A stretch of 64,000 bases of DNA, from contig NZ_CP050699.1 of NCBI RefSeq assembly GCF_005116675.2, positions 1,325,001 to 1,389,000 of the forward strand, given 5' to 3'. Positions 1,716-29,055 of this stretch are shown here, piece after piece (positions within the stretch are counted from its first letter, which is position 1; each line of letters begins with the position of its first letter). Source of the stretch: Desulfosediminicola ganghwensis. GTDB taxonomy: Bacteria > Desulfobacterota > Desulfobulbia > Desulfobulbales > Desulfocapsaceae. The translations under genes were made by a program, and so were the position numbers. The notes below the pieces were generated by a model. The model was not told the DNA's origin, did not search any database, and was given only the letters and a program-made list of their open reading frames with translations.

Positions 1716-2098
1716 GGCTCAGTTACCCTTGATGTGGATAGAATATCTGTGATGCGAAAATATGGTTAGAGCAATAGGTTACACAATAAACAGAACCAAC
1801 AACCACGAAAGAGGGGGATGAGCTTTTTTCAAAGAGAAAGTCGTGCATGGGGTTTCCGAGGATTCCCGGTCAGGTCGGGAAGTTTGAACCGCTCAGCCAG
1901 CGCTACTCCCCTATTTCACTGCTTATCTCTGGTAAGCGTAACAGCGAGCTTTGCGAAGAAAAAAAGGACTGTCTCTATCAAGACAGCCCTCCTCTTATTT
2001 GATGGCCACTATGCCATGTACCCTGGAACTCTCTCAGGCTAAGTAGTTTTTCAACTCGTAGTTATCAGAAAAAAAATAGCGCGAAAGGATCTCAGGCT
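1716..2098. other. Intergenic region containing a terminator
   Basis: 383 bases between the radical SAM gene and the cytochrome gene. Only the minus-strand terminator at 1966-1989 was recognised. Confidence 0.5.
1966..1989 (-). terminator. Rho-independent terminator of the cytochrome/flavoprotein operon
   Basis: On the minus strand GGGCTGTC, a loop, GACAGTCC and then seven T residues. It lies about 110 bases beyond the end of the cytochrome gene (2099) and is oriented to end that transcript. Confidence 0.7.
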
Positions 2099-2485
2099 TT
2101 ACTTCTTGAAATTCGGATAGTCGAAAAAATGACAACCGGCGCAGAGTACCTTTCTTTCCGAGTGTTCTCCATGACATTCCATACAGGGAACGTCTTTGGC
2201 GTAATGCATGTTGTTGTGGGGATTTTGCCATTTGTCTTCTTCAGGTCTGGCTGTGGCCTGAACAAGTTCATCGGAGTCGTGGCAGTCAAGACAGACAAAA
2301 TCAGGAGGATAGGCTTCCGGCTCGGCATTGACGTGGCAGGAATCACATGCATTATCGGCATATAAGTCGGCGTGAAAACTTCTTCCCTGGACGCTGTCGA
2401 ATTGCTGCAAAGTCTCTGCAACTAAAGATCCTGCCATAAGCACCACTGCTGCGGCAATGATCAGTACTTTTACTTGCGGTTTCAT
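2099..2485 (-). CDS. Periplasmic tetraheme cytochrome c
   Basis: A 128-residue exported protein with a signal peptide (about residues 1-23) and four CxxCH heme sites at C47-H51, C65-H69, C101-H105 and C115-H119. Spacing and size match the tetraheme domain that forms the N-terminal half of flavocytochrome c3 fumarate reductases. The flavin half is encoded just upstream as a separate protein. It would carry electrons from the membrane quinol pool or other cytochromes to that flavoprotein. GGAGGGAG sits five bases ahead of the start codon. The 22-base gap to the upstream gene argues for one transcript, ending at the hairpin near 1966. Confidence 0.92.
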   Translation of the reverse strand: MKPQVKVLIIAAAVVLMAGSLVAETLQQFDSVQGRSFHADLYADNACDSCHVNAEPEAYPPDFVCLDCHDSDELVQATARPEEDKWQNPHNNMHYAKDVPCMECHGEHSERKVLCAGCHFFDYPNFKK

Positions 2486-2507
2486 AAATACTCCCTCCGG
2501 GCAGAGA

Positions 2508-14395: not shown

Positions 14396-14836
14396 CTAAT
14401 ACAGGGCAACAATCTGCTCATACCGATCCCGGCTGGCATCGTGGTTAAAGGTGTAGAGCCTTGGCGCGGAACGGAAGTGAACCACACCTTCGTTGGCATC
14501 CAGGTAAAATTCAATATCGTCACTCGTACCGAACAGACCGCTTTTGCTGAGTGCGTGAATATAAGGGCCTTCCACCTTACGCAGTTCGATCCGTTCAAAC
14601 CTTTCCAAAGCCTTCAGGATAGCTTTTTGGGTTTCTTCGAGGTTGCTTTTGAAAGGCATTGGTTCGACTTTATGCCGGGCTTGTTCTGTCTGGCTGGAAA
14701 CAGCGTTCAAATAACCCGGAATAGGTGCCAGCTTACCGTCTTTCACTCCAATACAGGAGGGCACAATTGCGTTTCTCATGAGAACCAGACTTGCAACCAC
14801 AACTACCACGGCAGAAACACCTAATATTGATCGCAT
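14396..14836 (-). CDS. DUF1499 membrane-anchored protein, copy A
   Basis: 146 residues with an N-terminal transmembrane or signal segment (SILGVSAVVVVVASLVLM) and a DUF1499 domain: LNAVSSQTE, YIHALSKSGLFGTSDDIEFYL, VVHFRSAPRLY and the closing RDRYEQIVALY. DUF1499 proteins are small envelope proteins of unknown role. The start at 14836 has GGAGAA in front, in line with the paralogue at 17204; a GTG twelve bases earlier is less likely. It follows nhaD copy A on the same strand. Its paralogue beside nhaD copy B has clearly diverged, unlike the antiporters. Confidence 0.82.
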   Translation of the reverse strand: MRSILGVSAVVVVVASLVLMRNAIVPSCIGVKDGKLAPIPGYLNAVSSQTEQARHKVEPMPFKSNLEETQKAILKALERFERIELRKVEGPYIHALSKSGLFGTSDDIEFYLDANEGVVHFRSAPRLYTFNHDASRDRYEQIVALY

Positions 14837-14933
14837 ACTCTTCTCCACTTTGAAAGTATTTCAGATTTGCTGTTGTACTTGTTGTATTTCGCTTTTCAGC
14901 TATATCTTTAATTTTTCAATAACATTATCTGTG

Positions 14934-14976: not shown

Positions 14977-16410
14977 TTACATCAGCGAGCCATTGACCAG
15001 GAAATGGGCATAGATGCTGGCGATGTAGCCAAGGGCAATTACCGGGGTCCACTTGAGGTGGCCCAGGAAGGTGTACTTGCCGCGGGCAGCACCCATCAGG
15101 GCCACGCCTGCCGCGGAACCGATGGAGAGCATTGAGCCACCGACACCTGCAGTCAGGGTCACCAGCAGCCACTGGCCATGGGACATTTCAGGCATCATGG
15201 TGAGTACGGCAAACATTACCGGGATGTTGTCGACAATGGCGGAGAGGATGCCGACCAAAATGTTGGCGGTGGTTGGTCCGAGATCGAGGTACATGAACTT
15301 GGAGACCATCGCCAGGTAGCCCATGAAGCCGAGGCCGCCCACACAGAGAATGATGCCGTAGAAGAAGAGCAGGGTATCCCACTCGGCGCGGGCAACTTTG
15401 GTGAATACATCGAATGGAACCAGATCGCCGATGCGCTCGGCATCTTTTTCGGAACTGAAGGTGGCCTTGTTCTTTTTGTGGGTTTTATGCAGGTAGTAAC
15501 CAAAGATCTGCAACAGGGCCAAACCAGCCATCATACCGACCATTGGCGGCAGGCCGAGGAAGTTGTGGAAGCTCACCGCGGTGGCGATGGTCCAGAGGAA
15601 GAGGCCCATGATGACGAAGGCTCCACGCTTAAGCTGGATGTTGCCGACATTGGAGTCAGGCTGGGCCTTGGGCACGGCAAAGTGCATGATCGCCGCAGGA
15701 ACAAGCCAGTTAACCAGGGCTGGGACAAAGAGTACCAGGAACTCCTGGAACTGGATGATACCTTTCTGCCATACCATCAGGGTGGTGATGTCGCCGAACG
15801 GGCTGAAGGCGCCGCCGGCATTGGCAGCTACAACGATATTGATACAGGCGAGTCCGACAAACTTCTTGTCTTCTTTGCCGATGGCCATGACCACGGCACA
15901 CATCAGCAGCGCGGTGGTGAGATTGTCGGCAACGGGGGAGATAACGAACGAAAGGGCACCGGTTACCCAGAACAGTTTCCGGAAAGAATAGCCGGCGTTG
16001 ACCAGCTTCACCCGGAGCACTTCAAAGACTTTACGCTCTTCCATGGAGTTGATGAAGGTCATGGCCACCAGCAGGAACAGGAACAACTCGGCAAACTCGA
16101 GAATGTTGTGCCTGATGGCGACCTCGGCGGTGTGATCAACGCCCTTGATCGCGTAAATGAGTCCAATAAGGCCCCAGATGACGCCTGCAGCCAGCAACGC
16201 CGGTTTCGATTTTCTCATATGCGTTTTTTCTTCAAGCATGACGAAGGCATACGCAATGACAAAGGTTAATATTCCGACATAGCCAACCCAGTGCATGGTC
16301 AGGTCGAGCTGGATACCTGTATCCCCGCCTGAAGCCGCCATGGCCATCGAGCTGCAACCCAGAACGGTGCCGAGGGTAACAAATAACTTAATAAGACTCA
16401 TCTTCTGCAT
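14977..16410 (-). CDS. nhaD: NhaD-type sodium/proton antiporter, copy A
   Basis: 477 residues with a signal-like N-terminus and about eleven to twelve membrane segments. It belongs to the NhaD branch of the ion-transporter superfamily: VISPVADNLTTALLMCAVVM, ANAGGAFSPFGDITTLMVWQ and the second-half repeat LSAIVDNIPVMFAVLTMMP carry the conserved polar residues inside membrane helices. It exports sodium (or lithium) in exchange for protons and supports growth under high salt or alkaline stress. The coding sequence is practically identical to copy B at 17853-19286; only one residue near the start differs (L6 versus F6). A sigma-54 promoter lies about 225 bases upstream (16634-16649). A DUF1499 gene follows. 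Confidence 0.93.
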   Translation of the reverse strand: MQKMSLIKLFVTLGTVLGCSSMAMAASGGDTGIQLDLTMHWVGYVGILTFVIAYAFVMLEEKTHMRKSKPALLAAGVIWGLIGLIYAIKGVDHTAEVAIRHNILEFAELFLFLLVAMTFINSMEERKVFEVLRVKLVNAGYSFRKLFWVTGALSFVISPVADNLTTALLMCAVVMAIGKEDKKFVGLACINIVVAANAGGAFSPFGDITTLMVWQKGIIQFQEFLVLFVPALVNWLVPAAIMHFAVPKAQPDSNVGNIQLKRGAFVIMGLFLWTIATAVSFHNFLGLPPMVGMMAGLALLQIFGYYLHKTHKKNKATFSSEKDAERIGDLVPFDVFTKVARAEWDTLLFFYGIILCVGGLGFMGYLAMVSKFMYLDLGPTTANILVGILSAIVDNIPVMFAVLTMMPEMSHGQWLLVTLTAGVGGSMLSIGSAAGVALMGAARGKYTFLGHLKWTPVIALGYIASIYAHFLVNGSLM

Positions 16411-16633
16411 TAAATCTCTCCTGTGGTGATGCTTGTAAAAACGTTCCTCGTTGGCAAGATGGCGAACGGGGGGAGCGCATGTGTTGTAGAACGCTGTATT
16501 GTCATTTGCTGCTACACGCCCTTGCGTTTCAATCCGTTACATCGGTATGTCTCAGTTCGACGTGTTGATGCATGTGATCTGATCCCATACTGTTCCAGGA
16601 TGTTGAAGCCACAAAGTGTAACACTGTAGGTAT

Positions 16634-16649
16634 AGCAACTGACATGCCA
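16634..16649 (-). promoter_or_regulatory. Sigma-54 promoter of nhaD copy A
   Basis: Minus strand reads TGGCATGTCAGTTGCT, which matches the TGGCAC-N5-TTGCW consensus at every key position except C6. GG and GC have the required ten-base spacing. Transcription would begin near 16622, about 210 bases before the start codon. Confidence 0.8.
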
Positions 16650-16940
16650 GGGCGTGATGAATCGTAACTAAGAGGGATTGTGCAAGGAGGGTTCGACCGG
16701 CGTGATTCGAATGTCACGATCGAAGAAGGGAGGTTCCGGCATTAGAGTGTGCAGTTTTAAGAGGCTGTCCGTGCGTGCTAATTGTCGTGTATGTTATGCT
16801 CTCGCATTTTGAAAAAGAGGTGTTGGGGAGGTGTAACAGCACGGAGTGTAAAGCGTGAAATTTTTCGGTTCCGGCCAGCATTCGCTGTAAAGGTATTGGG
16901 ATTTGCTAACCATCGGCAGGAGAATGGAGGGTAAAAACCT

Positions 16941-16969
16941 TTTACAGGTTGCAAAGATTTCAGACAGGT
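16941..16969. promoter_or_regulatory. Conserved upstream element, copy A
   Basis: TTTACAGGTTGCAAAG, five bases, then CAGACAGGT; nearly the same block is at 21312-21340. Position about 300 bases above a sigma-54 promoter suggests an enhancer for an activator of the NtrC type, perhaps the one encoded at 23494. Confidence 0.45.
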
Positions 16970-17160
16970 GGAACTTTCGATCACTCCCCGGCTAACAGGA
17001 TATTGGTTGTGATATTGCTTGAAGCAGAGGGGGAGGACAGCTCAATGGAGAATGTGGATATACGGAGTGACGCGGGAGGGGCGTTTTCTGGTGTATCTTG
17101 TTGAGGCGGGTGGTGAGGCTGCCTGAAAGGTGGCGGGATACATGCGATGGAAAGCAAATA

Positions 17161-17190
17161 TAACGAGTTCACACTGATGTGAACTCGTTA
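17161..17190 (-). terminator. Terminator after DUF1499 gene B
   Basis: Perfect 13-base arms TAACGAGTTCACA and TGTGAACTCGTTA with a four-base loop, just past the DUF1499 B stop. The minus strand continues TATTTGCTTTCC, a weak T-run. The stem resembles the terminator of copy A. Confidence 0.75.
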
Positions 17191-17203
17191 AGTTTGTTTG
17201 CCA

Positions 17204-17644
17204 TCAGTACAGCGCAACGATCTGTTCGTAACGATCCCGGCAGGTTTGTTTACTGAAGGTATAGAGTCTGGGCGCGGAACGGTAATGAACCACCCCTGCG
17301 TTCTCATCAATGTAAAACTCGATATCGGTGGATGAACCGAATACGCCATTTTTACTCAAAGCATGTATGTATGGGCCTTCGACTTTCTGCAGTTCAATGC
17401 AATCGACTTTATCAAGTGCTTGTAATATAGAGCCCTTCGTCTCTTCGAGATTGCTTTTGAATCGGAGCGGCTCGACCCTGTTCCGGGCAACCTCGGTCTG
17501 GCTGGACACTGCATTCAGAAAGCCGGGAGGTGGGGCGAGTTTGCCGTCAATAGCTCCAATGCCAGAGGGTATAATCGTGTTTCGCAGTAAAATGAAACCG
17601 GCGAAAACTGCTGCAGCTGCAGAAATACCTATCAATGCTCTCAT
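17204..17644 (-). CDS. DUF1499 membrane-anchored protein, copy B
   Basis: 146 residues, same length and layout as the copy at 14396: an N-terminal hydrophobic segment (ALIGISAAAAVFAGFILL), then LNAVSSQTE, YIHALSKNGVFGSSTDIEFYI, VVHYRSAPRLY and RDRYEQIVALY. The two proteins agree in roughly two thirds of positions by eye. It follows nhaD copy B by 208 bases, with a hairpin between. Being kept next to each antiporter copy suggests a functional tie to ion transport or the envelope, but no function is known for the family. Confidence 0.82.
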   Translation of the reverse strand: MRALIGISAAAAVFAGFILLRNTIIPSGIGAIDGKLAPPPGFLNAVSSQTEVARNRVEPLRFKSNLEETKGSILQALDKVDCIELQKVEGPYIHALSKNGVFGSSTDIEFYIDENAGVVHYRSAPRLYTFSKQTCRDRYEQIVALY

Positions 17645-17810
17645 AATACCTCCTGTTCTCGGTACGTTCAGATTTTAGCTCAAATGTACCATGATCATTT
17701 CGTCTAAATAAAGAAAAACATATGATGTTAAGCTGTTATCGTTTTTCTGAATGATCGTTTTTTCGAGAGATACTCAATGAAGGTATCTGTAAGTATAGAT
17801 TTTTGCTCAT

Positions 17811-17842
17811 TCGGAGGCCGGCTGTATTGATCCGGCCTCCGA
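17811..17842 (-). terminator. Hairpin after nhaD copy B
   Basis: Perfect 11-base arms TCGGAGGCCGG and CCGGCCTCCGA around ten bases, next to the nhaD stop codon. Like the copy A hairpin it has no strong T-run and may partly attenuate read-through into DUF1499 B. Confidence 0.6.
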
Positions 17843-17852
17843 CAGCAATCTG

Positions 17853-19286
17853 TTACATCAGCGAGCCATTGACCAGGAAATGGGCATAGATGCTGGCGAT
17901 GTAGCCAAGGGCAATTACCGGGGTCCACTTGAGGTGGCCCAGGAAGGTGTACTTGCCGCGGGCAGCACCCATCAGGGCCACGCCTGCCGCGGAACCGATG
18001 GAGAGCATTGAGCCACCGACACCTGCAGTCAGGGTCACCAGCAGCCACTGGCCATGGGACATTTCAGGCATCATGGTGAGTACGGCAAACATTACCGGGA
18101 TGTTGTCGACAATGGCGGAGAGGATGCCGACCAAAATGTTGGCGGTGGTTGGTCCGAGATCGAGGTACATGAACTTGGAGACCATCGCCAGGTAGCCCAT
18201 GAAGCCGAGGCCGCCCACACAGAGAATGATGCCGTAGAAGAAGAGCAGGGTATCCCACTCGGCGCGGGCAACTTTGGTGAATACATCGAATGGAACCAGA
18301 TCGCCGATGCGCTCGGCATCTTTTTCGGAACTGAAGGTGGCCTTGTTCTTTTTGTGGGTTTTATGCAGGTAGTAACCAAAGATCTGCAACAGGGCCAAAC
18401 CAGCCATCATACCGACCATTGGCGGCAGGCCGAGGAAGTTGTGGAAGCTCACCGCGGTGGCGATGGTCCAGAGGAAGAGGCCCATGATGACGAAGGCTCC
18501 ACGCTTAAGCTGGATGTTGCCGACATTGGAGTCAGGCTGGGCCTTGGGCACGGCAAAGTGCATGATCGCCGCAGGAACAAGCCAGTTAACCAGGGCTGGG
18601 ACAAAGAGTACCAGGAACTCCTGGAACTGGATGATACCTTTCTGCCATACCATCAGGGTGGTGATGTCGCCGAACGGGCTGAAGGCGCCGCCGGCATTGG
18701 CAGCTACAACGATATTGATACAGGCGAGTCCGACAAACTTCTTGTCTTCTTTGCCGATGGCCATGACCACGGCACACATCAGCAGCGCGGTGGTGAGATT
18801 GTCGGCAACGGGGGAGATAACGAACGAAAGGGCACCGGTTACCCAGAACAGTTTCCGGAAAGAATAGCCGGCGTTGACCAGCTTCACCCGGAGCACTTCA
18901 AAGACTTTACGCTCTTCCATGGAGTTGATGAAGGTCATGGCCACCAGCAGGAACAGGAACAACTCGGCAAACTCGAGAATGTTGTGCCTGATGGCGACCT
19001 CGGCGGTGTGATCAACGCCCTTGATCGCGTAAATGAGTCCAATAAGGCCCCAGATGACGCCTGCAGCCAGCAACGCCGGTTTCGATTTTCTCATATGCGT
19101 TTTTTCTTCAAGCATGACGAAGGCATACGCAATGACAAAGGTTAATATTCCGACATAGCCAACCCAGTGCATGGTCAGGTCGAGCTGGATACCTGTATCC
19201 CCGCCTGAAGCCGCCATGGCCATCGAGCTGCAACCCAGAACGGTGCCGAGGGTAACAAATAACTTAATAAAACTCATTTTCTGCAT
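17853..19286 (-). CDS. nhaD: NhaD-type sodium/proton antiporter, copy B
   Basis: 477 residues, identical to copy A except F6 in place of L6. The DNA also appears identical from just past the stop codon to within about 25 bases of the start, where a handful of changes appear (AATAAAACTCATTTTC here against AATAAGACTCATCTTC). It exchanges sodium for protons at the inner membrane. The start has GGAGAGGTTAA ahead of ATG. It lies 69 bases after the SLC13 gene on the same strand with no promoter visible in between, so it is probably expressed from the sigma-54 promoter at 21001. Near identity next to diverged DUF1499 genes points to recent gene conversion. Confidence 0.93.
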   Translation of the reverse strand: MQKMSFIKLFVTLGTVLGCSSMAMAASGGDTGIQLDLTMHWVGYVGILTFVIAYAFVMLEEKTHMRKSKPALLAAGVIWGLIGLIYAIKGVDHTAEVAIRHNILEFAELFLFLLVAMTFINSMEERKVFEVLRVKLVNAGYSFRKLFWVTGALSFVISPVADNLTTALLMCAVVMAIGKEDKKFVGLACINIVVAANAGGAFSPFGDITTLMVWQKGIIQFQEFLVLFVPALVNWLVPAAIMHFAVPKAQPDSNVGNIQLKRGAFVIMGLFLWTIATAVSFHNFLGLPPMVGMMAGLALLQIFGYYLHKTHKKNKATFSSEKDAERIGDLVPFDVFTKVARAEWDTLLFFYGIILCVGGLGFMGYLAMVSKFMYLDLGPTTANILVGILSAIVDNIPVMFAVLTMMPEMSHGQWLLVTLTAGVGGSMLSIGSAAGVALMGAARGKYTFLGHLKWTPVIALGYIASIYAHFLVNGSLM

Positions 19287-19355
19287 TTAACCTCTCCTGT
19301 GGTGATGCTTTAAAACGTGTCCCGCAAGCAATCTCACCTGCGGGACGGATTTAAT

Positions 19356-20843
19356 CTAACTAGTTGGAATTATGGTGGTCATTCCCATTAGTGGCCAGAT
19401 TATGGTGACAGCCAGCCAGGTTACTGCCATGAGCAGAATTGACGCTGGTATGCCATATTTTACGAATTCTCCTGTGGTGAACTGCCTGGAGTTGTAGGCA
19501 ATGGCGTTCGGTGCCGCCCCGACCAGGAGCAGAAACGGCATGCCGGCAACAACCAGGGAGGAGAAGAGTATGACTTCTCCGCTTACGCCGAGATATGGTG
19601 CAATAACAAGTGCAACAGGCAGGGAAATGGCGATTGCCGCGACGTTCATGATGAAGTTGGTCATCATCATGACGAAGAAGGCCATGCCCATAATGAATAC
19701 GATTGCCGGAGCATTTTTGAACAGCTGCAACCAGTTGACGGCGAGCCATTTAGCGGCACCGGTCTCCCAGAGGCAGAAGCCGATGGACATTGCACCGGCA
19801 AAGAGCAGGATTATGTTCCAGGGCACCATTTCAAGATCATCGAGATCAAGAATATTCAGAGCAAAAAAGGCGATTGTGGATAAGAGCATAACCCCGGTTT
19901 TATCAAGTGACGCAAAGGCCGGGACAAAACTCTTGAGGGCAATAACAAGAATGGTCGCTACCACAATGAGTACGGTCGCTATTTCATTACGGCTCCAGGA
20001 GCCGAGCTCGACATACATCCGCGCCGCCCGCTCTTTGAGGCCGGGAATGCGATCTTTCTCCGGGCGGAAGAAGACCATGACAAATCCCCAGAGCAAAAAC
20101 ACCATCAACCAACCGATGGGGAACATGTACATGGACAGCTCGAAAAAGCTGATGTTCACACCCATAATGTCCCTGTAGAATCCTAGTGCTACAGCACCAC
20201 GGGCAGCGCCGAGCAGGGTCACGATACTTCCCGCTCCTGCGACATACGCCATACCTATAAAGAGCCCCTTGCCGAATTTGGTCGGGTTGTCGTCGTCCGA
20301 GTAGAGCGCATGGATGGTCATCAGCAGCGGGAACATGGTGGCAGCCACCGCGGTGTGAGCCATCAGGTGGGTCAATGCTGCGGTCATGACAAAACATCCC
20401 AGGTAAATCATGCTGGTTCGTTCACCAATGATGGACAACATCTTGTAAGCCAGTCTCTTGGTGAGGCCTGTCTTGGTGAAGACCATGCCAATGACTATGG
20501 AGCCAAAGATGAACAGTACTGATGGGTCCATGAAGTCGCGAAATGCCGTGGCCGGGTTACGGATCAGAAAAATAGCCTGCAGTGCGCCTATGGTAAGGCT
20601 GGTGATACCGATCGGAACAACTTCGAATACCCACCAGGTAGCAGCCAGGACAAAGATTGCCAATGCGCCTTTGGCCTCTTTACTGAGGACAAAGTGTTCT
20701 CCAAGTGGATCGATAGCATCCGGCCAGGGCGGACACCAGTAGACAAATGCAAAAAGACCAATGCCAAGCAGCATGAAGAAGAGCCGCTTAAGATCGAATG
20801 TGGAACCTCTGGCCTGCTGCTGTACCGCTGTTGCTTCACTCAT
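19356..20843 (-). CDS. SLC13/DASS-family sodium-coupled anion carrier
   Basis: 495 residues with about eleven to twelve membrane helices and the features of the divalent anion:sodium symporter family: FEVVPIGITSLTIGALQAIF near the N-terminus, the hairpin-type MTAALTHLMAHTAVAATMF segment, the matching second-half MTNFIMNVAAIAISLPVAL segment, and GAAPNAIAYNSRQFTTGEF near the end. Family members take up dicarboxylates, sulfate or related anions with sodium. GAAGGAAAAG precedes the ATG. It is the first gene of a run with nhaD copy B and DUF1499 B and has a near-consensus sigma-54 promoter. Sodium-driven uptake and NhaD sodium export would be natural partners. The anion is unknown. Confidence 0.85.
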   Translation of the reverse strand: MSEATAVQQQARGSTFDLKRLFFMLLGIGLFAFVYWCPPWPDAIDPLGEHFVLSKEAKGALAIFVLAATWWVFEVVPIGITSLTIGALQAIFLIRNPATAFRDFMDPSVLFIFGSIVIGMVFTKTGLTKRLAYKMLSIIGERTSMIYLGCFVMTAALTHLMAHTAVAATMFPLLMTIHALYSDDDNPTKFGKGLFIGMAYVAGAGSIVTLLGAARGAVALGFYRDIMGVNISFFELSMYMFPIGWLMVFLLWGFVMVFFRPEKDRIPGLKERAARMYVELGSWSRNEIATVLIVVATILVIALKSFVPAFASLDKTGVMLLSTIAFFALNILDLDDLEMVPWNIILLFAGAMSIGFCLWETGAAKWLAVNWLQLFKNAPAIVFIMGMAFFVMMMTNFIMNVAAIAISLPVALVIAPYLGVSGEVILFSSLVVAGMPFLLLVGAAPNAIAYNSRQFTTGEFVKYGIPASILLMAVTWLAVTIIWPLMGMTTIIPTS

Positions 20844-21000
20844 AATCTTTTCCTTCAGTCCTTAAATATTGTGAGCGCCGAGGTTCGGGATGCTGGTTTC
20901 ATTTACTGCACGTCTTTTAGCGAGGCGTATCCCGGCAGCGCTGTGTTTACTTTTCCCGGTTACTCATTGGTCTGTTGCAATGTGTAACGGAACACCTCAA

Positions 21001-21016
21001 AGCAACCGATGTGCCA
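21001..21016 (-). promoter_or_regulatory. Sigma-54 promoter of the SLC13-nhaD B operon
   Basis: Minus strand reads TGGCACATCGGTTGCT, a complete match to TGGCAC-N5-TTGCW. Transcription would begin near 20989, about 145 bases ahead of the SLC13 start. Confidence 0.87.
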
Positions 21017-21311
21017 GTATTGTGATAAATCGTATCGAAAGGAAATGGCGGTGGGGCTGGATCTGTTACTAACCTGTCTGGTGTGAACTCCCGGATTCGA
21101 ACAGCCAGAGAGTGACAGTTGTTGAATTAAGTGAGCGATTTTATGTGTATGTGATTGTGGCGTGGAGGGCTTTCAGAGCTTGTGAAAAGAGTGCCGGGAG
21201 CTGCACAAAAGAGGGTGAGGGAACCGGGAAAAATCACGTAATCGCGTGTACCGGTGACAAGCGTTCAGGGTTAGGTGAACCTGTCAGAAAGGTATGCAGG
21301 CGTCAAATCTC

Positions 21312-21340
21312 TTTACAGTTTGCAAAGTAATCGGACAGGT
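21312..21340. promoter_or_regulatory. Conserved upstream element, copy B
   Basis: TTTACAGTTTGCAAAG, five bases, then CGGACAGGT. Same spacing to the promoter as copy A (about 310 versus 307 bases). A GACAGGT at its end faces an ACCTGTC at 21279-21285. Likely activator binding region. Confidence 0.45.
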
Positions 21341-21447
21341 AGTAACGCCTTTTTTGCTAAATCTCTGGAGTTGTGAGGTTGGGCTACCATGTTTATTCGG
21401 CTGATTTACGGCCGTTAGGAGGCCATAAAGGGGTCGGTGATACAAAA

Positions 21448-21463
21448 TGGTATGAAACATGCA
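21448..21463 (+). promoter_or_regulatory. Possible sigma-54 promoter of the signalling operon
   Basis: TGGTATGAAACATGCA keeps the GG-N10-GC core and most flanking consensus bases. Transcription would start about 60 bases before the ATG at 21536. Weaker than the two promoters on the other strand. Confidence 0.5.
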
Positions 21464-21535: not shown

Positions 21536-22753
21536 ATGTCATCAATAGCGATCTTTCCATGCATATTTACACCGGCATCCGAGGTGGCTGAAGCCCTTGC
21601 CCGCACACATGACCTGAGAGTGTATCGTGATCAGCAATTACTCGAAGATACATCTAAATTATATGGAACAAGCCTTGATAGACTGAACGGGGCTCTTTAT
21701 GGCAGGACCTCTGTTTTCAATAAATTTACATTAGAGAGAGAAAAGCACCTCAATCAGCTCAAGAGCGTCCTGGTTGAAAAGATCGTCCAGCCCCAAGGGT
21801 ATATGTTCTTTGGTTACATGACCTCCCTGATCTCTCCTCAAATCTCGCATATTTTTAAAGCGCTGATTGCAGATAACAGGAAATCACGCATCGAGGCAGC
21901 ACTTGCTGCAGGGCTTTCTGAGCGCTCAGCGAAAAAACAGATCCATGACGAAGATCTGAAAGCTTTTAACTTAACCGACTTTTTGTATAAAAAAGAGGCG
22001 TTTGACAGCTCACTTTTCGATCTGGTTGTGCCGGTGGAAGGTCGCTCTGCCGATACTCTTACCGGGGTAATCTCAAGCTATTTTCAAAGAACATCCCTTC
22101 TCAGAACCGAGCAATCCGAGCAGGCTGCAGTTGATATGGCGGTGCAGGCTGAAGTAGAGCGAAAGCTTCTGGCGGCCGGCCATAAAATGAATGTCTCTGT
22201 CTCTGGTTCCAAGGCGACTCTGGGAGTGGAGAAAAGTGTTTTGAACTTTGACAGGCTGGTCAACGAATTGAACAACCTGGTTCTTGACGGGGTAGCAGCC
22301 ATTACGGAAGTGCAGGTTGAAAAAAGCATTCACTACAATGATTCGATTTACCGGAGGCAGCGTTTCGATCTGCCATCAAAAGTTCTTTTCGTCGATGACG
22401 AGCGTGAGTTTGTTGAGACCATTTCTGAACGTCTGATAAGTAGGGATGTCGGCACTTACGGCGTGTTCAATGGTGACGAAGCTTTGAGTCTTCTCGAAGA
22501 GGATTGCCCGGATGTGATGGTGCTCGATTTGAAAATGCCGGGCATGAGCGGGGTTCAGGTACTTCGGGAAGCCAAGAAGGTGGCACCGGATGTCGAGGTT
22601 ATCATTCTCACCGGCCATGGTTCCCAGCAGGATATGCTTGATTGCATGGAGCTTGGTGCTTTTTCGTATATGAATAAACCAGTTGATATCGCAGAGCTTT
22701 CAGCAACCATTAAGGAAGCTCACAAGAAGGCGGCATCCCATCAGCAGGACTGA
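21536..22753 (+). CDS. Cytidylate-kinase-like domain fused to a response-regulator receiver
   Basis: 405 residues. The first 200 or so follow the cytidylate-kinase-like family of anaerobic bacteria (RDQQLLEDTSKLYG, then HIFKALIADNRKSRIEAAL, SERSAKKQIHDED and SLFDLVVPVEGRSADT). However, the P-loop expected at the N-terminus is replaced by FPCIFTPASEVAEAL, lacking GxxGxGK, so nucleotide phosphorylation is doubtful. A BON-like stretch follows (about 210-265). Residues 283-400 are a complete receiver: VLFVDDE, phospho-acceptor in VMVLDLKMPG, threonine in ILTGHG and lysine in MNKPVD. First gene of the signalling operon, divergent from the antiporter genes. Probably a phosphorylation-controlled output or binding protein. 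Confidence 0.82.
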   Translation: MSSIAIFPCIFTPASEVAEALARTHDLRVYRDQQLLEDTSKLYGTSLDRLNGALYGRTSVFNKFTLEREKHLNQLKSVLVEKIVQPQGYMFFGYMTSLISPQISHIFKALIADNRKSRIEAALAAGLSERSAKKQIHDEDLKAFNLTDFLYKKEAFDSSLFDLVVPVEGRSADTLTGVISSYFQRTSLLRTEQSEQAAVDMAVQAEVERKLLAAGHKMNVSVSGSKATLGVEKSVLNFDRLVNELNNLVLDGVAAITEVQVEKSIHYNDSIYRRQRFDLPSKVLFVDDEREFVETISERLISRDVGTYGVFNGDEALSLLEEDCPDVMVLDLKMPGMSGVQVLREAKKVAPDVEVIILTGHGSQQDMLDCMELGAFSYMNKPVDIAELSATIKEAHKKAASHQQD

Positions 22754-22823: not shown

Positions 22824-23264
22824 ATGGTTGAGATTCAGAATACGAGAGTTCTGCTAGTTGATGACGAAGATGACTTCTTAACGACGTTGGCAAGCCGATT
22901 GGAATTACGGGATTTGAAGGTGAGTACCGCTACCAGAGGTGAAGACGCACTCGAGGTTATGAGTGGGTCAGATGTGGATGTGGTGGTGCTTGATCTATCG
23001 ATGCCCGGCATGGATGGCCTGGAAACCTTGAAGCGTATCAAGAGCCAGGTTCCTGAGGCGGAGGTACTCATCCTCACCGGGCACGGTTCAATCCGTGCCG
23101 GAGTGGAGGCAATGAAGCTGGGAGCCGAGGACTTTATCGAAAAGCCTGTGGATATCAACGAACTATTGGAAAAAATAGAAGATGCAAAACAGAAGAGGGT
23201 ACTGGTGCTGCAAAGCAAGTCCCGGGAGCAGATAGATAAAATCCTGAAGGCGAGACCCTGGTAG
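22824..23264 (+). CDS. Single-domain response regulator
   Basis: 146 residues: a receiver with LLVDDEDDF, phospho-acceptor aspartate in VVVLDLSMPGMDG, ILTGHGS and IEKPVD, followed by a short helical tail (QKRVLVLQSKSREQIDKILK) without a DNA-binding domain. The start at 22824 has GAGG six bases ahead; the open frame to 22683 overlaps the previous gene and is unlikely. It is closely similar to the receiver at the end of the preceding fusion protein, suggesting duplication. It would relay phosphate from the kinase at 25252 to another partner. Confidence 0.85.
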   Translation: MVEIQNTRVLLVDDEDDFLTTLASRLELRDLKVSTATRGEDALEVMSGSDVDVVVLDLSMPGMDGLETLKRIKSQVPEAEVLILTGHGSIRAGVEAMKLGAEDFIEKPVDINELLEKIEDAKQKRVLVLQSKSREQIDKILKARPW

Positions 23265-23493: not shown

Positions 23494-24885
23494 ATGAAGG
23501 ACGCATCGGTAAATTTTGAAATGCAGACAATCCTGGAGGGTATTCCGTATCCTGCCATGATTCTGGACAGGGGATTTCGCATCGTCGACATGAACCGGCG
23601 ACTCGAAGCCCTGACCGGCTATGAGGTCGACAGCGTGCAGGGTATTTTCGGTGAGTTGGTTGTGCGAAGCAACACCGGCAACTCCAGGGGGCAGCTCTAC
23701 ATCCGGGCTGTGGAGACCGGTAAATCGTTCGCAGTGGCAGGTGATATCCTGAGCCGTTTCCGGACAAAAATCCCGGTTCTCTATAATATTGCACCTCTGA
23801 AAAAAGATCAGGAATGTCAGGGATTGCTGGTGATTGCCGAAGATATTTCAGCACGGAGCGGTGGGGGGGAGAGCACTGCCGCAGCAATTGATACCAGTGA
23901 CCTCATCGCACAAAGTTCGAAGATGCAGAAGGTGCTCGATATGATACCGCTTCTGGCTCATACTGACGCTTCTGTGTTGATTACCGGTGAGACCGGTACC
24001 GGCAAGGACAAGATTGCCGAGGTTATTCATCGTGAGTCCGAGCGGGCAGGCCAGCCTTTTATCAAGGTGAACTGTGGCGCACTGCCGACAGAATTGCTGG
24101 AGTCTGAACTGTTCGGACATGTCAAAGGTGCCTTTACCGGGGCTACAAGAAATAAGCAGGGCATGTTTAAGCTGGCAGACAGAGGAACTCTCTTTCTCAC
24201 AGAGATCGGTGACATGCCTCTGTCGCTGCAGGTGAAATTATTGTCAGTACTTGATGACAGGAAGTTCATTCCGGTTGGGGGAGAGCAGAGTGTTGAGGTG
24301 AATGTCAGAATTATTGCCGCAACTCATCGCCCTTTACGGCAGCAGGTGGCCAGGGGCGAGTTTCGGGAGGATCTCTTCTACCGTCTTAATGTCCTCCATG
24401 TACACCTGCCTCCAGTAAGGGAGCGGCAACGGGATGTGGAGTTACTGCTCCATCATTTTCTGCATACGTACAACCAACGATTAAATAAAAGTATAACCGG
24501 CTTTTCCGCAGGGGTCAGCAAGCTGCTTCATAACTATAAATATCCCGGTAATATCAGGGAACTTCGCAATATTGTTGAATACTGCGTCAATGTTTGCCCG
24601 GAAGAGACGATCCGTCGGCAGCATATTCCTGTCTTTCTGTTCAATGCAGTTGAGGAGAAGCGTGAAGTTGTTACCGACGAAAATACTCTGTCCCGGGTAG
24701 AGACCTGTGCTCCGCAATCCCGGAATGACGAGATAAAGGCGGGGGAGAGTTGGGGAGCTATCGAGCGGCAGATGATTGTCGAAATGCTGACGAGGCATGG
24801 CGGCAGCAGAAAACTTGCGGCGGAGGAACTGGGGTGGGGACGCATGAAGCTCTGGCGACGGATGAAAAAGTACGAGCTGTTGTGA
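23494..24885 (+). CDS. Sigma-54-dependent activator with PAS sensor (PAS-AAA-Fis)
   Basis: 463 residues. An N-terminal PAS domain (ILEGIPYPAMILDRGFRIVD to about 115) replaces a receiver. The AAA+ domain has Walker A GETGTGKDKI, the sigma-54 contact loop GAFTGA and the arginine-finger region FREDLFYRLNVLHVHLPP. A Fis-type helix-turn-helix closes the protein (HGGSRKLAAEELGWGRMKLW). Unusually, Walker B reads RGTLFLTEIGDMP with threonine where the catalytic aspartate (LFLDEIG) is expected, so ATP hydrolysis may be weak or need a partner subunit. It is the obvious candidate to drive the three nearby -24/-12 promoters. The next gene begins ten bases after its stop. Confidence 0.88.
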   Translation: MKDASVNFEMQTILEGIPYPAMILDRGFRIVDMNRRLEALTGYEVDSVQGIFGELVVRSNTGNSRGQLYIRAVETGKSFAVAGDILSRFRTKIPVLYNIAPLKKDQECQGLLVIAEDISARSGGGESTAAAIDTSDLIAQSSKMQKVLDMIPLLAHTDASVLITGETGTGKDKIAEVIHRESERAGQPFIKVNCGALPTELLESELFGHVKGAFTGATRNKQGMFKLADRGTLFLTEIGDMPLSLQVKLLSVLDDRKFIPVGGEQSVEVNVRIIAATHRPLRQQVARGEFREDLFYRLNVLHVHLPPVRERQRDVELLLHHFLHTYNQRLNKSITGFSAGVSKLLHNYKYPGNIRELRNIVEYCVNVCPEETIRRQHIPVFLFNAVEEKREVVTDENTLSRVETCAPQSRNDEIKAGESWGAIERQMIVEMLTRHGGSRKLAAEELGWGRMKLWRRMKKYELL

Positions 24886-24895
24886 GAGGTGTTTG

Positions 24896-25255
24896 ATGAA
24901 ACGGAAACTTTTGATGACCATCCAGGGAAAATATGTTGCGCCGCGATTCGATCTCGCTACAGAACTGCTGGTCGCGAGCATTAGTGACGGCAAACTGGCT
25001 GGCGAGCCGAAGACCATCATCATGGATAAACCGTCCGATGAGAAGCTGTGTAAAATGATCCTCGAGGAAAAAATCACCGACGTGGTCTGCGGAGGCATCG
25101 ATGAAATGCACTTTAACTTCCTGCGCTGGAAACAGATCAGTGTTGTGGATGGAGTCATCGCCGACTGGCGCAATGCCTTGAATATGCACCAGGCAGGCTT
25201 ACTCAGGCAGGGGCAGATACTGTTTGATGGTACCGGTCAAGGTGACGAATCATGA
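24896..25255 (+). CDS. NifX/NafY-type dinitrogenase cofactor-family protein
   Basis: A 119-residue single-domain protein of the NifB/NifX cluster-binding family: MTIQGKYVAPRFDLATELLV at the start, then TDVVCGGIDEMHFNFLRWKQ and a helical end with VDGVIADWRNAL. Family members bind iron-sulfur or iron-molybdenum clusters, but many lie outside nitrogen fixation. No nif genes are present here. The ATG at 24896 has GAGAGG upstream and the stop overlaps the kinase start by four bases (ATGA). Its place between an activator and a kinase suggests it senses or modulates the signalling proteins, perhaps by a metal cluster; that is inference. Confidence 0.72.
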   Translation: MKRKLLMTIQGKYVAPRFDLATELLVASISDGKLAGEPKTIIMDKPSDEKLCKMILEEKITDVVCGGIDEMHFNFLRWKQISVVDGVIADWRNALNMHQAGLLRQGQILFDGTGQGDES

Positions 25256-26982
25256 GAGGAATCAATACATCGCTTGATTTTGAACGGGTGATTCCCGATT
25301 CTCTGAAACCCGGTCGATTTGTCGCTTCCAAGCGTAATTATCAAAAGCTGCGTTATGCACTTTTGGGCGCAATGGTCGTTATAGCCTTGGTGCCGGTGAG
25401 CATGGTATCGGGGCTGAGCTACTATTATTACCACAACCTGCTGGTCAAGGCAGAGTCTGAACAGTTGAACTGGCAGCTCGATGGTTCGGTCAGCGCTATG
25501 CAGCACATGGTCGACAGTCTCAGCTCAGTGGTTGAATTCGTAGCCAGGGAAGATCGCTACCAGGAACTGGTGAGCGGCCATAACCTGATGGAGGTACTCA
25601 AGAGAAAACGAGAACATTACGGATTCTTTGCCGACCTCGGGGTAATTGACAGCGTTGGCATCAAACAGGCCTATTATGGTCCCTATGACCTTGTGGGCAA
25701 GGATTATTCCAAGGAGAGCTGGTACCGGGAGGTCATGGCCAGCGGGCTCCATATCAGTACTGTCTATATGGGATATCGCCAGACTCCCCATTTTGCCATC
25801 GCCGTCAGCAAGATCGACCCGAAGACGAGAAAACCATGGGTGCTCAGGGCAACCATTGATGCGCTGACTCTGCAAAAGTTTGTCAATACCATCAAGACCA
25901 ACGCCGCAGCAGACTTGTTCATTGTCGATGAGTCGGGGGTACTACAGACTCCATCGGTCTACTATGGAGATACCTTTCAGAGCTATCCAATGGCGATTGC
26001 GGCCGGTACCCATCATACCGTGGCGGAAAATGGCGAGGCGATTTTTGAGGCGATAGGCAAAATACCGAATACGCCCTGGTCGGTGGTTCTGGTGAAGAAG
26101 CATTTTATTCACCAGGCGGATTGGGTGGCTTTTAAAAAGCAGCTTCTGTACATCATACTCGGCAGTATCATTCTGGGTGTTTTTATTATTCAGTACCTGG
26201 TCAGCTATCTGATCAACCTTATCCGCAGCGCGGATGAAATGCAGATGTCGATGCTGAAGGAGGCGGAGCATAACGACAAGTTGGTTTCAATCGGCCGACT
26301 TGCTGCGGGCGTAGGTCATGAAATTAATAACCCACTGGCGATAATCAATGAGAAAACAGGGCTTATAGAGGATCTGCTCACCATAACGTCTGACTTCGAA
26401 TATAAGGCTACCATCGAGAAAAACCTGAAAGGGATAAATACCAGTGTGAAGCGGTGTAAGGCTATCACCCACCGGCTTCTCGGTTTTGCCCGGCACGGCG
26501 AAGTGAGGGCTGAGAAATTTGAGATTAATGACCTTATTTGCGAAGTGCTCACTTTTCTGGAAAGCGCTATGCGATATAGCCGTATCAATACAAGTCTGCA
26601 TTTTGGTGATGATTTACCGACGATTGAAAGCGACAGGATGCAGCTTCAACAGATATTTCTGAATATCATCAACAATGCCATAGACGCCATCGGCAAGGAT
26701 GGTGGAATCACCATTACCACCAGTCAACTTGTGGGGGATATCCAGGTAACAGTGCAGGATAACGGGCCAGGCATGGAGCAGGAGGTGGTGTACCGGATTT
26801 TTGAACCCTTCTACACCACTAAGGAGCAGGGTAAGGGCACAGGGCTGGGGCTTTCCATAACCTATGGCCTGATCAAGAAATTGGGCGGTGATATTACAGT
26901 GCACTCAAATCCCGGCAAAGGTACCGCATTTACAATCACTATTCCGATAGAGGGGGAACAGCATGATAGCGAAGAACGGTAA
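25252..26982 (+). CDS. Membrane sensor histidine kinase with periplasmic Cache-type domain
   Basis: 576 residues. A membrane helix near 35-58 and another near 298-320 enclose a periplasmic region of about 240 residues with Cache features (DLVGKDYSKESWYREVMASG, FAIAVSKIDPKTRKPWVL). The cytoplasmic part has the phospho-acceptor block GVGHEINNPLAIINEK and an ATPase domain with NIINNAIDAI, VQDNGPGM, FEPFYTTKEQGKGTGLGLS. No HAMP domain is apparent. It overlaps the NifX-like gene by four bases and the following receiver by twenty, so all are made together. It would phosphorylate the three receivers in this operon; the ligand is unknown, sodium or a small organic anion being plausible from context. 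Confidence 0.92.
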   Translation: MRGINTSLDFERVIPDSLKPGRFVASKRNYQKLRYALLGAMVVIALVPVSMVSGLSYYYYHNLLVKAESEQLNWQLDGSVSAMQHMVDSLSSVVEFVAREDRYQELVSGHNLMEVLKRKREHYGFFADLGVIDSVGIKQAYYGPYDLVGKDYSKESWYREVMASGLHISTVYMGYRQTPHFAIAVSKIDPKTRKPWVLRATIDALTLQKFVNTIKTNAAADLFIVDESGVLQTPSVYYGDTFQSYPMAIAAGTHHTVAENGEAIFEAIGKIPNTPWSVVLVKKHFIHQADWVAFKKQLLYIILGSIILGVFIIQYLVSYLINLIRSADEMQMSMLKEAEHNDKLVSIGRLAAGVGHEINNPLAIINEKTGLIEDLLTITSDFEYKATIEKNLKGINTSVKRCKAITHRLLGFARHGEVRAEKFEINDLICEVLTFLESAMRYSRINTSLHFGDDLPTIESDRMQLQQIFLNIINNAIDAIGKDGGITITTSQLVGDIQVTVQDNGPGMEQEVVYRIFEPFYTTKEQGKGTGLGLSITYGLIKKLGGDITVHSNPGKGTAFTITIPIEGEQHDSEER

Positions 26983-27349
26983 GGTCTTGCGGATATTGAT
27001 TGTAGATGATGAGGTGGAGTTTGCTCAAACCCTTGCCATGCGGCTGGAGTTGAGAAAATTTCAGATCGGGATCGCACACAGTGGGCGCGCCGCACTGGAT
27101 ATCATGGCTCAGGAATCATATGACCTGATGCTGCTCGATTTAAAGATACCGGATATTGGCGGGCTTGAAGTAGTAGGGATTTTAAGGGATAGAGGCACTT
27201 CCGCCAGGATTATTGTTGTTTCCGGTGACGGCCCGGCAGGAGAGGATCAGGTCAAGCTGGAGGCGCCTGTGGCCTCTTACATGGCCAAGCCGGTGGAGTT
27301 GAACGCGTTGCTGAAGAATATCAGCCTACTCTTTCCTGATGACGTATGA
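26963..27349 (+). CDS. Single-domain response regulator
   Basis: 128 residues, receiver only: LIVDDEVEFAQTL, phospho-acceptor in LMLLDLKIPDIGG, VVSGDG in place of the usual TGHG, and MAKPVEL. It overlaps the end of the kinase gene by 20 bases. A lone receiver after a hybrid-free kinase is typical of a phosphorelay or of a phosphate sink. Third receiver in the operon. Confidence 0.85.
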   Translation: MIAKNGKVLRILIVDDEVEFAQTLAMRLELRKFQIGIAHSGRAALDIMAQESYDLMLLDLKIPDIGGLEVVGILRDRGTSARIIVVSGDGPAGEDQVKLEAPVASYMAKPVELNALLKNISLLFPDDV

Positions 27350-27849: not shown

Positions 27850-29055
27850 ATGATAAAGAATACACATCTGTTGAAACAGTCAGTGATCGTGGTGACAATA
27901 AGTCTGGCTTCGGGCCATGCCATGGCCGCAGGCTTTCAAATTAATGCTCAGTCAGCAACCGGCATTGGTCGCGCCTTCGCAGGTGATGCTGTAATCGCAG
28001 ATAACGCCTCTGTAGTGGCCCGCAACTCTGCAGCCATGGCACTTTTTGATGAAACGTCAATGTCGCTTGGTTTTGAAACGATCACCTCCCTGATTGAAGT
28101 CAAAGATGCCAGCTATAATGGCGGTGCCATTGGAACTGTTGATGATGTCGGTGGCACCTCCATTGCCCCCAATTTTCATCTCATCGTGCCAATCGATGAT
28201 AAATTTGCCGTGGGCGTTACCGCCTATTCAAACTTCGGCACCAAGACAGAATTTCCCGATTCATATCCGGCAGGCGAGTTTGCCGGCTTGACCGACGTGA
28301 AGAGCTATAATCTTGGATTAGCAGGTTCCTACCGCATTAACGAGCAATGGAGTGTCGGGGCGGGTCTGGACCTTATCTACGGTCAGGGCTCAATGAGACG
28401 TGCCGTTACCGGAGGTCCAACTGTTCTTGATGTGGATAAAGCAGATGGCTGGGCTGTGGGCTTTAATCTTGGCACCACATATGAGCTGAATGAAAACAAC
28501 CGCTTCGGCCTGTCATATCGCTATAGCCCCACCATGGATACTGAAGATGACAAGGGCCAGAAAATCAGCTTACCTCTGCCGGATATAGCGGAATTTTCCG
28601 GTTATCATAGAATCGAAGATACCAAGTTCGCGGTGCATTACAGTATCCAGTGGATTGGCTGGAGTGCTTTCGATAAGATTGAATTTCGTGATTTAGATGG
28701 CGGTATGGTTGGCCCAAGTTATGATAAGGACTATGCCTGGCAGGATGGCTGGCATTTTGCCCTCGGCGGTACTTATTACCTGAACGATACCTGGACGCTT
28801 CGTGCCGGCTATATGTATGACACCGCCGCCCAGGATGAGGTTACCTCTATTTCCGTACCCGATTCAGATCGCCAATGGTTTTCCGCCGGCTTCACCTATG
28901 CCCTCAATGAAAAATCTGATATTGATTTCGGCTTTACCTACCTGTTGGGTAAGGATGTGGCCGTAACAGAAACGACAGAGCTGGGCACTTCTGTCAACGC
29001 AACCACCCATGCGGATGCGATTTTAATGGGTTTGCAGTATAACCGTTCATTCTAA
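27850..29055 (+). CDS. FadL/OmpP1-type outer membrane channel
   Basis: 401 residues with a signal peptide ending GHAMA, then AGFQINAQSATGIGRAFAG and DNASVVARNSAAMALF, the N-terminal hatch region of the FadL family. Alternating hydrophobic strands and a final aromatic residue (LQYNRSF) fit a 14-strand outer membrane barrel. Members let hydrophobic compounds such as long-chain fatty acids or aromatics cross the outer membrane. GGAG lies upstream of the ATG. It is a single-gene unit ending in a clear terminator. Confidence 0.9.
   Translation: MIKNTHLLKQSVIVVTISLASGHAMAAGFQINAQSATGIGRAFAGDAVIADNASVVARNSAAMALFDETSMSLGFETITSLIEVKDASYNGGAIGTVDDVGGTSIAPNFHLIVPIDDKFAVGVTAYSNFGTKTEFPDSYPAGEFAGLTDVKSYNLGLAGSYRINEQWSVGAGLDLIYGQGSMRRAVTGGPTVLDVDKADGWAVGFNLGTTYELNENNRFGLSYRYSPTMDTEDDKGQKISLPLPDIAEFSGYHRIEDTKFAVHYSIQWIGWSAFDKIEFRDLDGGMVGPSYDKDYAWQDGWHFALGGTYYLNDTWTLRAGYMYDTAAQDEVTSISVPDSDRQWFSAGFTYALNEKSDIDFGFTYLLGKDVAVTETTELGTSVNATTHADAILMGLQYNRSF

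Follow-up and report, generated by a model that had tools for sequence, protein, structure and literature searches.

The question raised by this locus is what a group of sigma-54 promoters serves among genes for sodium/proton antiport, anion transport and signalling. The locus lies in a 64,000-nucleotide stretch of the genome of Desulfosediminicola ganghwensis (contig NZ_CP050699.1, positions 1,325,001 to 1,389,000), which is referred to here as the window and in whose numbering positions are given. Its minus strand carries two copies of the Na+/H+ antiporter gene nhaD, nhaD A (14977..16410) and nhaD B (17853..19286), together with a gene for a carrier of the SLC13/DASS family (19356..20843). 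Divergent from these is a plus-strand signalling operon, which was found to encode a sigma-54 activator (EBP), a membrane kinase and three receivers (R1, R2 and R3), as an earlier annotation made from the bare sequence (the sequence-only reading) had stated; one receiver has an extra domain, and the operon also holds a gene for a NifX-like protein which that annotation had not named. The sequence-only reading took the locus for a self-contained sigma-54 regulon dedicated to NhaD and possibly a new ion-homeostasis circuit. It is probable, judging from the comparisons below, that the genes instead form a sigma-54-controlled anion-uptake module of sulfate-reducing Desulfobacterota, with sulfate as the most likely anion.

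Both strands were scanned with a strict form of the -24/-12 promoter, TGGCAY-N5-TTGCW, with the reversed pattern as control; bit scores come from a weight matrix that was set by hand and not fitted. Exactly two strict matches were found in the window, where the genome density of the pattern leads one to expect about 0.4 per 64 kb. They are the two sites that had been picked out before: TGGCACATCGGTTGCT (21001..21016, minus strand, 17.1 bits), which precedes SLC13-nhaD B and lies 173 nt ahead of the SLC13 start, and TGGCATGTCAGTTGCT (16634..16649, minus strand, 16.1 bits), 239 nt ahead of the start of nhaD A. As the strict pattern occurs 39 times in the 5.65 Mb genome compared with 2 occurrences of the reversed control, the motif can be regarded as real in D. 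ganghwensis. A weaker site, TGGTATGAAACATGCA (21448..21463, plus strand, 10.9 bits), stands at the head of the signalling operon 88 nt before R1, and retains the GG and GC with two departures from the strict pattern. It is probably a true promoter, since it falls in an interval that is conserved before R1 in relatives.

This conservation was assessed upstream of R1 in 140 loci (L061–L200), of which 77 remained after removal of repeats and of loci with less than 130 bp upstream: 48 with genes for EBP and the NifX-like protein nearby, 19 R1 paralogues without NifX-like or SLC13, and 10 of mixed class. Of the 48 loci, 41 carry a -24/-12 site of at least 9 bits between -125 and -60 relative to R1 (1.0% in shuffles); the score reaches at least 12 bits in 35 (0.33%) and at least 14 bits in 24 (0.04%), and no site was found in these 48 loci in a control interval from -400 to -335. 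The GG-N10-GC elements, loss of which in relatives the sequence-only reading had named as evidence against itself, are thus conserved. The same interval holds a site in 3 of the 19 paralogues and 6 of the 10 mixed loci; two of those three paralogue hits (L071 and L089, the latter at a contig end) show few or no other module genes and may belong with the 48. Before other genes of the set such sites are scarce (R2, 9/178; EBP, 2/113; kinase, 1/131; NifX-like, 0/55; repeats kept). The R1 site extends to loci of Desulfobacula, Desulfoluna and Desulfamplus in which R1 is only 32–34% identical (L164, L176, L188, L192, L197); one locus with R1 at 34% identity (L178) has no site before R1.

In relatives the genes usually form the row R1, R2, (CBS), SLC13, (NhaD), EBP, NifX-like, kinase and receiver, often with another small kinase-like open reading frame (ORF). 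R1 and SLC13 share a strand in 36 of 45 loci and are opposed in 9, while R1 and EBP share one in 46 of 48; this layout suggests that the R1-first row is one transcript. The separate, divergent signalling operon of the earlier description therefore holds for the window, whereas most relatives have both parts on one strand with the promoter before R1. When the 600 bp ahead of SLC13 and nhaD were scanned in relatives, few sites were returned directly before these genes, mostly none, because in most loci R1 heads a joint row and the site precedes R1. What had looked like a refutation from missing SLC13 and nhaD promoters was overturned when a whole-locus scan found the sites before R1. Six of seven divergent relatives carry a site of 12.7–17.1 bits directed towards the SLC13 unit (L061, L081, L082, L122 of Desulfosediminicola flagellatus, L123 of Desulforhopalus singaporensis and L129 of Desulfogranum marinum), and the seventh, L062, has one of 11.9 bits only; the seven were chosen by eye from maps, and the remaining opposite-strand loci, L075 and L155 (rearranged), lay outside that scan. 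Since divergent loci carry this second site, separate SLC13/NhaD promoters seem to arise where the gene row is split. For the promoter pair that the sequence-only reading had advised looking for upstream of nhaD in related genomes, the outcome is that sites before SLC13 and nhaD are mostly absent, and what recurs is the site before R1 and, in divergent loci, one facing the SLC13 unit.

A mechanism can be proposed whose first steps are supported by the sequence comparisons: sigma-54 RNA polymerase would be recruited to the -24/-12 promoters before R1 and, where the row is split, also before SLC13 and nhaD A, and the PAS-AAA-Fis activator of the module would recognise pairs of TGTWWC half-sites 10 bp apart. 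In the inferred steps that follow, the activator would open the promoters once the anion supply is signalled by the dCache kinase, whose sensor is presumably extracellular, by the three receivers and by the NifX-like protein. SLC13 would import the anion (sulfate) with Na+ and NhaD would expel Na+ for protons, so that sulfate entry would finally be paid for by the proton gradient; the module would most likely be one of Na+-coupled sulfate uptake, with NhaD returning the Na+. Much of the carbon turnover of marine sediments is driven by a process that begins with sulfate uptake, a step whose transcriptional control is little known. If the proposal is true, the sigma factor, activator, DNA site and promoter positions are named and can be tested in cultured strains, and sulfate entry gains a concrete Na+ cycle.

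The predicted carrier (495 aa) matches PF00939 with 149.6 bits (cut-off 27) and falls narrowly below the cut-off of TIGR00785 (192.3 against 198.6). Among 217 genomes of the phylum (at least 90% completeness requested), the SLC13 family was found in 38 (E <= 1e-150), all of them among the 112 genomes with dsrA (E <= 1e-60; hypergeometric 3e-13, which ignores relatedness). Within the order the comparison is uninformative, as dsrA is almost universal there (187 of 193 genomes at E <= 0.001, of which 174 exceed the cut-off; SLC13 in 68 of 193 at E <= 1e-100). For 26 species, a cluster has been described in which a DASS sulfate transporter is accompanied by genes for two-component proteins, Cache kinases and CBS proteins; external sulfate is the proposed signal, in a model drawn from gene neighbourhoods and proteomes (PMC11887813, main text). 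Its Desulfosarcina variabilis example (Dvar_38230-38430) resembles the present module in combining DASS, two-component genes, Cache-domain kinases and CBS proteins in a sulfate reducer; it differs in its WalR-type response regulators and PhoRB-like model, and the likeness is one of description, not of sequence. A CBS gene adjoins SLC13 in the three loci tested for it (L066, L129, L176). In the Desulfobacula locus L176, SLC13 is 70% identical to that of the window; farther on, past five genes of which one is CBS, lies another DASS with 28% identity to it. According to PMC5840216, TOL2_19470 and TOL2_19410 of Desulfobacula toluolica are 27% identical, occur in the membrane fraction and are listed as putative sulfate transporters, and the L176 pair fits them as the layout and identity are alike. 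The group Ci DASS (TOL2_19470, HRM2_40290) are hence probably the same kind of carrier, with a second DASS five genes away, a link made by context and not by sequence, assuming that locus tags rise by ten per gene. For HRM2_40290 (D. autotrophicum) that source is not consistent, giving high expression at 15 mM sulfate in one place and a preference for <100 uM in another.

The same sigma-54/EBP circuit could instead serve another cargo, such as a dicarboxylate, sulfite, thiosulfate or other dianion, and hence the uptake of carbon or of intermediate sulfur, which is considered rather unlikely. The DASS family covers dicarboxylates as well as sulfate (PMC5840216), the best solved relatives of the carrier by sequence are a dicarboxylate cotransporter and transporters of NadC/VcINDY type, with SLC13A1 chains lower, and its motif residues are unlike those of VcINDY. 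Against this stand the confinement of the carrier to genomes with dsrA (38/38), which would fit sulfite or thiosulfate too, and the published view that a DASS cluster accompanied by two-component and CBS genes serves sulfate (PMC11887813, main text).

The link between the promoters and the neighbouring activator was sought in the DNA upstream of the R1 promoters, where a motif search returned TGTTTC-N4-TGTTTC. The form TGTWWC-N4-TGTWWC, with one mismatch allowed, occurs in 40 of the 48 loci, against 1.8 predicted by dinucleotide shuffling, and in 3 of the 19 control loci, against 0.2, the motif having been found and counted on largely the same loci. Half-sites recur most conspicuously at a distance of 10 bp (22 pairs), 52 of the 93 paired hits start at -225 to -176 from R1, and candidate sites in relatives lie mostly ~90-145 bp upstream of the R1 promoter. 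Most EBP recognition helices read either GRTTLWRK or GRMKLWRK. TGTTTC is the majority half-site in 27 of 29 TT-helix loci (with 2 ties) and TGTWAC/TGTATC in all 11 MK-helix loci; five distant ST-helix loci have TGTTTC only, one MT locus has MK-type sites and two loci have no readable helix. This co-variation of half-site and helix (Fisher's P 8e-10, ignoring relatedness) ties EBP to these promoters, and together with gene linkage it supports a link of sigma-54 control here to the adjacent activator. The window EBP is of the MK type, and 11 MK-type half-sites were counted in the promoter regions of the window against 2.1 in shuffles (two palindromic places being counted twice), namely 7 against 1.04 before nhaD A and 4 against 1.15 before SLC13/R1 (P 0.038). 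Two candidate paired sites with one mismatch each are TGTTGCAATGTGTAAC (20973..20988, plus strand; 0.06 expected from dinucleotide shuffles), just downstream of the SLC13 promoter, and TGTAACGGATTGAAAC (16526..16541, minus strand; 0.02 expected), in the nhaD A leader downstream of its promoter. The perfect pair TGTWWC-N4-TGTWWC is uninformative for further targets in this genome, as its 8 occurrences, none of them in the window, compare with 9 of the reversed pattern.

A second copy of the module lies near 4.95 Mb of the same genome (L061, 4938000-4957999), with R1 at 61%, EBP at 63% and SLC13 at 81% identity; it is divergent, with a sigma-54 site on each side. Cross-talk between the two copies is likely because the EBP of the second has the same recognition-helix dipeptide as that of the window, and the description as self-contained is not supported. 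This paralogue, the 58 PF00158 matches of the whole genome (53 above 150 bits), and the imperfect and misplaced paired sites of the window would all suit an arrangement in which the promoters are genuine but another activator serves them, EBP regulating something else; the co-variation over 40 loci of relatives, plus gene linkage, makes this unlikely.

With regard to NhaD, loci L121-L200 had been fetched via SLC13 and contain it by construction, for which reason a count was made on loci fetched via R1. Of the 34 R1-fetched loci with EBP and NifX-like, 31 have SLC13 (>=60%) and 17 have NhaD (>=55%). Among 96 distinct SLC13 loci, many of them truncated, NhaD is present in 27 and directly downstream in 25; the proportion is 23 of 65 in SLC13 loci of at least 15 kb. 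NhaD is thus an accessory of the module, being present in only part of its loci, and the idea of a circuit dedicated to it is not supported. A circuit that answers to a Na+ or pH signal, with NhaD as the main output and SLC13 as a passenger, is accordingly quite improbable. The two nhaD copies of the window, one with a sigma-54 promoter of its own, speak for such a circuit, as do the 25 of 96 loci with nhaD directly behind SLC13 and its presence in half of the R1-fetched module loci. It is outweighed by the 31 of those 34 loci that have SLC13 and by the loci of at least 15 kb with SLC13 at 76% identity or more, in which EBP and NifX-like are nearby in 33 of 34 and nhaD in 18 of 34. Sulfate uptake is favoured over ion homeostasis because of the dsrA confinement and the published DASS cluster (PMC11887813, main text); of the new ion-homeostasis circuit first suggested, the conserved sigma-54/EBP circuit stands while the ion-homeostasis part is the weaker reading. 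That the -24/-12 matches are fortuitous and the genes use other promoters, as could be argued from sites 173 and 239 nt from their start codons and known from sequence alone, is highly improbable in view of the conservation before R1 (41/48 against 1% in shuffles) and before the SLC13 unit (6/7 divergent loci).

A number of observations weigh against sulfate uptake under sigma-54 control. At the 9-bit threshold 7 of the 48 loci have no R1 promoter (L075, L081, L073, L137, L143, L155, L185), and NhaD is absent from 69 of the 96 SLC13 loci, many of which are truncated. Three R1-fetched module loci (L093, L094, L098) have no SLC13 in reach, and none was found in their genomes either (G105, G104 and G120, which are outside the 68 positives); the signalling set can therefore exist without the carrier. 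All three loci still have a sigma-54 site in front of R1, scoring 16.1 bits in L094 and L098 and 9.6 in L093. Five SLC13-positive genomes of the order (G044, G174, G143, G057, G159) have no convincing dsrA match, where gaps are possible. The carrier has AHT and MNV where a VcINDY-type chain has the paired SNT motif of SLC13/DASS carriers, and these residues (A162 H163 T164 and M399 N400 V401) are invariant across 21 aligned homologues. The co-variation of helix and site may reflect a single evolutionary switch, and the MK set may be one lineage. The weakest link is that the best paired sites of the window are downstream of the promoters, which is unusual for an enhancer. Finally, EBP has no receiver domain to connect it with the kinase and the separate receivers.

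The signalling operon begins with R1 (21536..22753, plus strand, 405 aa), in which a cytidylate-kinase-like domain (PF13189, 40.5 bits) is joined to a receiver (PF00072, 86 bits). The former shows no evident P-loop in the alignment rows, and R1 may be a receiver joined to a pseudo-enzyme. In the order, 128 of the 193 genomes contain R1 matches (E <= 1e-20, receiver-only matches counted too). R2 (22824..23264, plus strand; PF00072, 109.5 bits) and R3 (26963..27349, plus strand; PF00072, 73 bits) are single-domain receivers, and in the domain search none of the three receivers has a DNA-binding part. The kinase (25252..26982, plus strand; PF02743, PF00512, PF02518) is a membrane histidine kinase with a dCache sensor domain. 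EBP (23494..24885, plus strand) consists of PAS, AAA and Fis-type helix-turn-helix parts (PAS_4, 28.7 bits; PF00158, 236.2 bits; HTH_8, PF02954, 47 bits), and has the GAFTGA loop of a sigma-54 activator at residue 212, which is retained in 76 of 79 aligned EBP sequences (window and repeats counted). It gave no PF00072 match and carries PAS in place of the N-terminal receiver of NtrC/DctD-type activators.

The NifX-like protein (24896..25255, plus strand) scores 19.3 bits against PF02579 (E 0.0014), under the curated cut-off of 26.3; at E <= 0.1 the model is hit by each of 25 family members. Structure prediction (pLDDT 92) gave the protein a fold matching 2yx6, 2qtd, NafY 1p90 and NifX 9ian, which places it in the FeMo-cofactor-binding fold of NifX, NafY and orange protein; the match to orange protein 2wfb is weak (E 8.7e-3). 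Its gene lies directly behind that of EBP in all 75 places with room to see (repeats included), also in Desulfovibrio-labelled loci (L186, L194, L195). Among the cysteines of the protein, C65 never varies and C52 hardly does. The fold match, conserved cysteines and constant position lend support to a speculative role, which we hold to be doubtful, as an intracellular sensor that might bind a sulfur-metal unit (sulfide, thiomolybdate or an Fe-S/Mo-S cluster) and hold or release the receiver-less PAS activator. If this were true, two readouts would jointly govern sulfate entry, one of sulfide or sulfur-metal status inside the cell and one of sulfate outside it through the Cache kinase and free receivers, as a dedicated sigma-54 feedback loop on the entry step of dissimilatory sulfate reduction across much of Desulfobacterota.

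A membrane sensor kinase and a sigma-54 activator also switch a carrier gene in the DctB/DctD-dctA system; the present module differs in that its activator carries PAS but lacks a receiver, the receivers being encoded on their own. We know of no DASS carrier at orp operons. The orp operons of Desulfovibrio vulgaris share with the module sigma-54 control and a product of the fold family of the NifX-like protein (PMC3897727, PMC4641369). The main text of the latter, on the D. vulgaris sigma-54 regulome, mentions TSUP and PSE family transporters and contains no antiporter, DASS or sulfate permease. The main text of PMC11887813 contains neither 'antiporter', 'cytidylate' nor 'NhaD', and sigma-54 once, in its section on catabolism; in PMC12316311, as far as its text was available, neither sulfate nor antiporter occurs, and PMC3543383 and PMC4215793 have no bearing on the circuit. 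In the literature searched on sigma-54 with NhaD, NhaD with sulfate transport, cytidylate-kinase-like response regulators, and sigma-54 with sulfate uptake or DASS, the circuit is not described. DASS clusters with two-component and CBS genes are thus known (published 2025), and the sigma-54 circuit and the coupling to NhaD were not found in the papers searched.

Both NhaD proteins (477 aa) score 631.5 bits against the equivalog model NF038006 (cut-off 80); the older TIGR00775 gives 446.9, below its cut-off of 577.1. The genes nhaD A and nhaD B are 99.3% identical over 1514 nt. One DUF1499 gene lies between them (17204-17644, minus strand) and a second behind nhaD A (14396-14848); these two align in two pieces only (78% over 123 nt and 74% over 86 nt). 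The near-identity of nhaD beside diverged DUF1499 genes looks as if nhaD alone had been homogenised. The promoter regions ahead of SLC13 and nhaD A can be aligned for ~380-390 bp with a score of 89, compared with at most 45 after shuffling; two blocks are well preserved, one comprising the promoter and TACGATTYATCAC immediately before it and the other ACCTGTCYGANNNCTTTGCAANCTGTAAA some 295 bp upstream. These relationships suggest a tandem duplication of promoter, (SLC13,) nhaD and DUF1499, followed by loss of one SLC13 and homogenisation of nhaD; duplication of the promoter-nhaD-DUF1499 part appears here to have given nhaD its own sigma-54 promoter. An element shared by the two regions, CTTTGCAANCTGTAAA, is found on the minus strand ~296 bp upstream of the SLC13 promoter (21312..21327) and ~292 bp upstream of that of nhaD A (16941..16956). 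It has three exact copies in the genome, these two and one within an ORF elsewhere, and one more with a mismatch. It was rejected as an activator site, as the third copy is intragenic and the two promoters were themselves the source of the pattern, for which reason it may merely mark the duplicated promoter region. A sequence resembling it was spotted by eye in loci L083 and L084 and left out of the counts.

As to the spread of the module, the labels of 80 of at least 545 relatives are mostly Desulfobulbaceae, Desulfobacter-type and related bacteria, with one cable bacterium and one Paludibacter; we take the cultured members among these 80 to reduce sulfate. In L107-L120, R1 paralogues stand mostly in R1-kinase-receiver rows without EBP or NifX-like and mostly without a sigma-54 site at the head, L112 having one at -152. 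L142 (Desulfofustis) has the whole row and then a second R1/R2/NifX/EBP set on the opposite strand. In L176 a NhaD-like ORF (1198-3177, minus strand, 659 aa) with CitMHS and PAS domains is divergent from EBP, and is either a transporter-sensor fusion or an assembly effect. No CBS gene was seen next to SLC13 in the window; in D. flagellatus a remnant like the end of a CBS gene was noted by eye between R2 and SLC13 (L122:9712-10000). Elsewhere in the window, a further sigma-54 activator domain is located at 32780-33280 (minus strand; contig 1357780-1358280) within an ORF at 32288-33703, and a FadL/TodX-type outer membrane protein gene (27850-29055; PF03349, 415 bits) adjoins the 3' end of the signalling operon.

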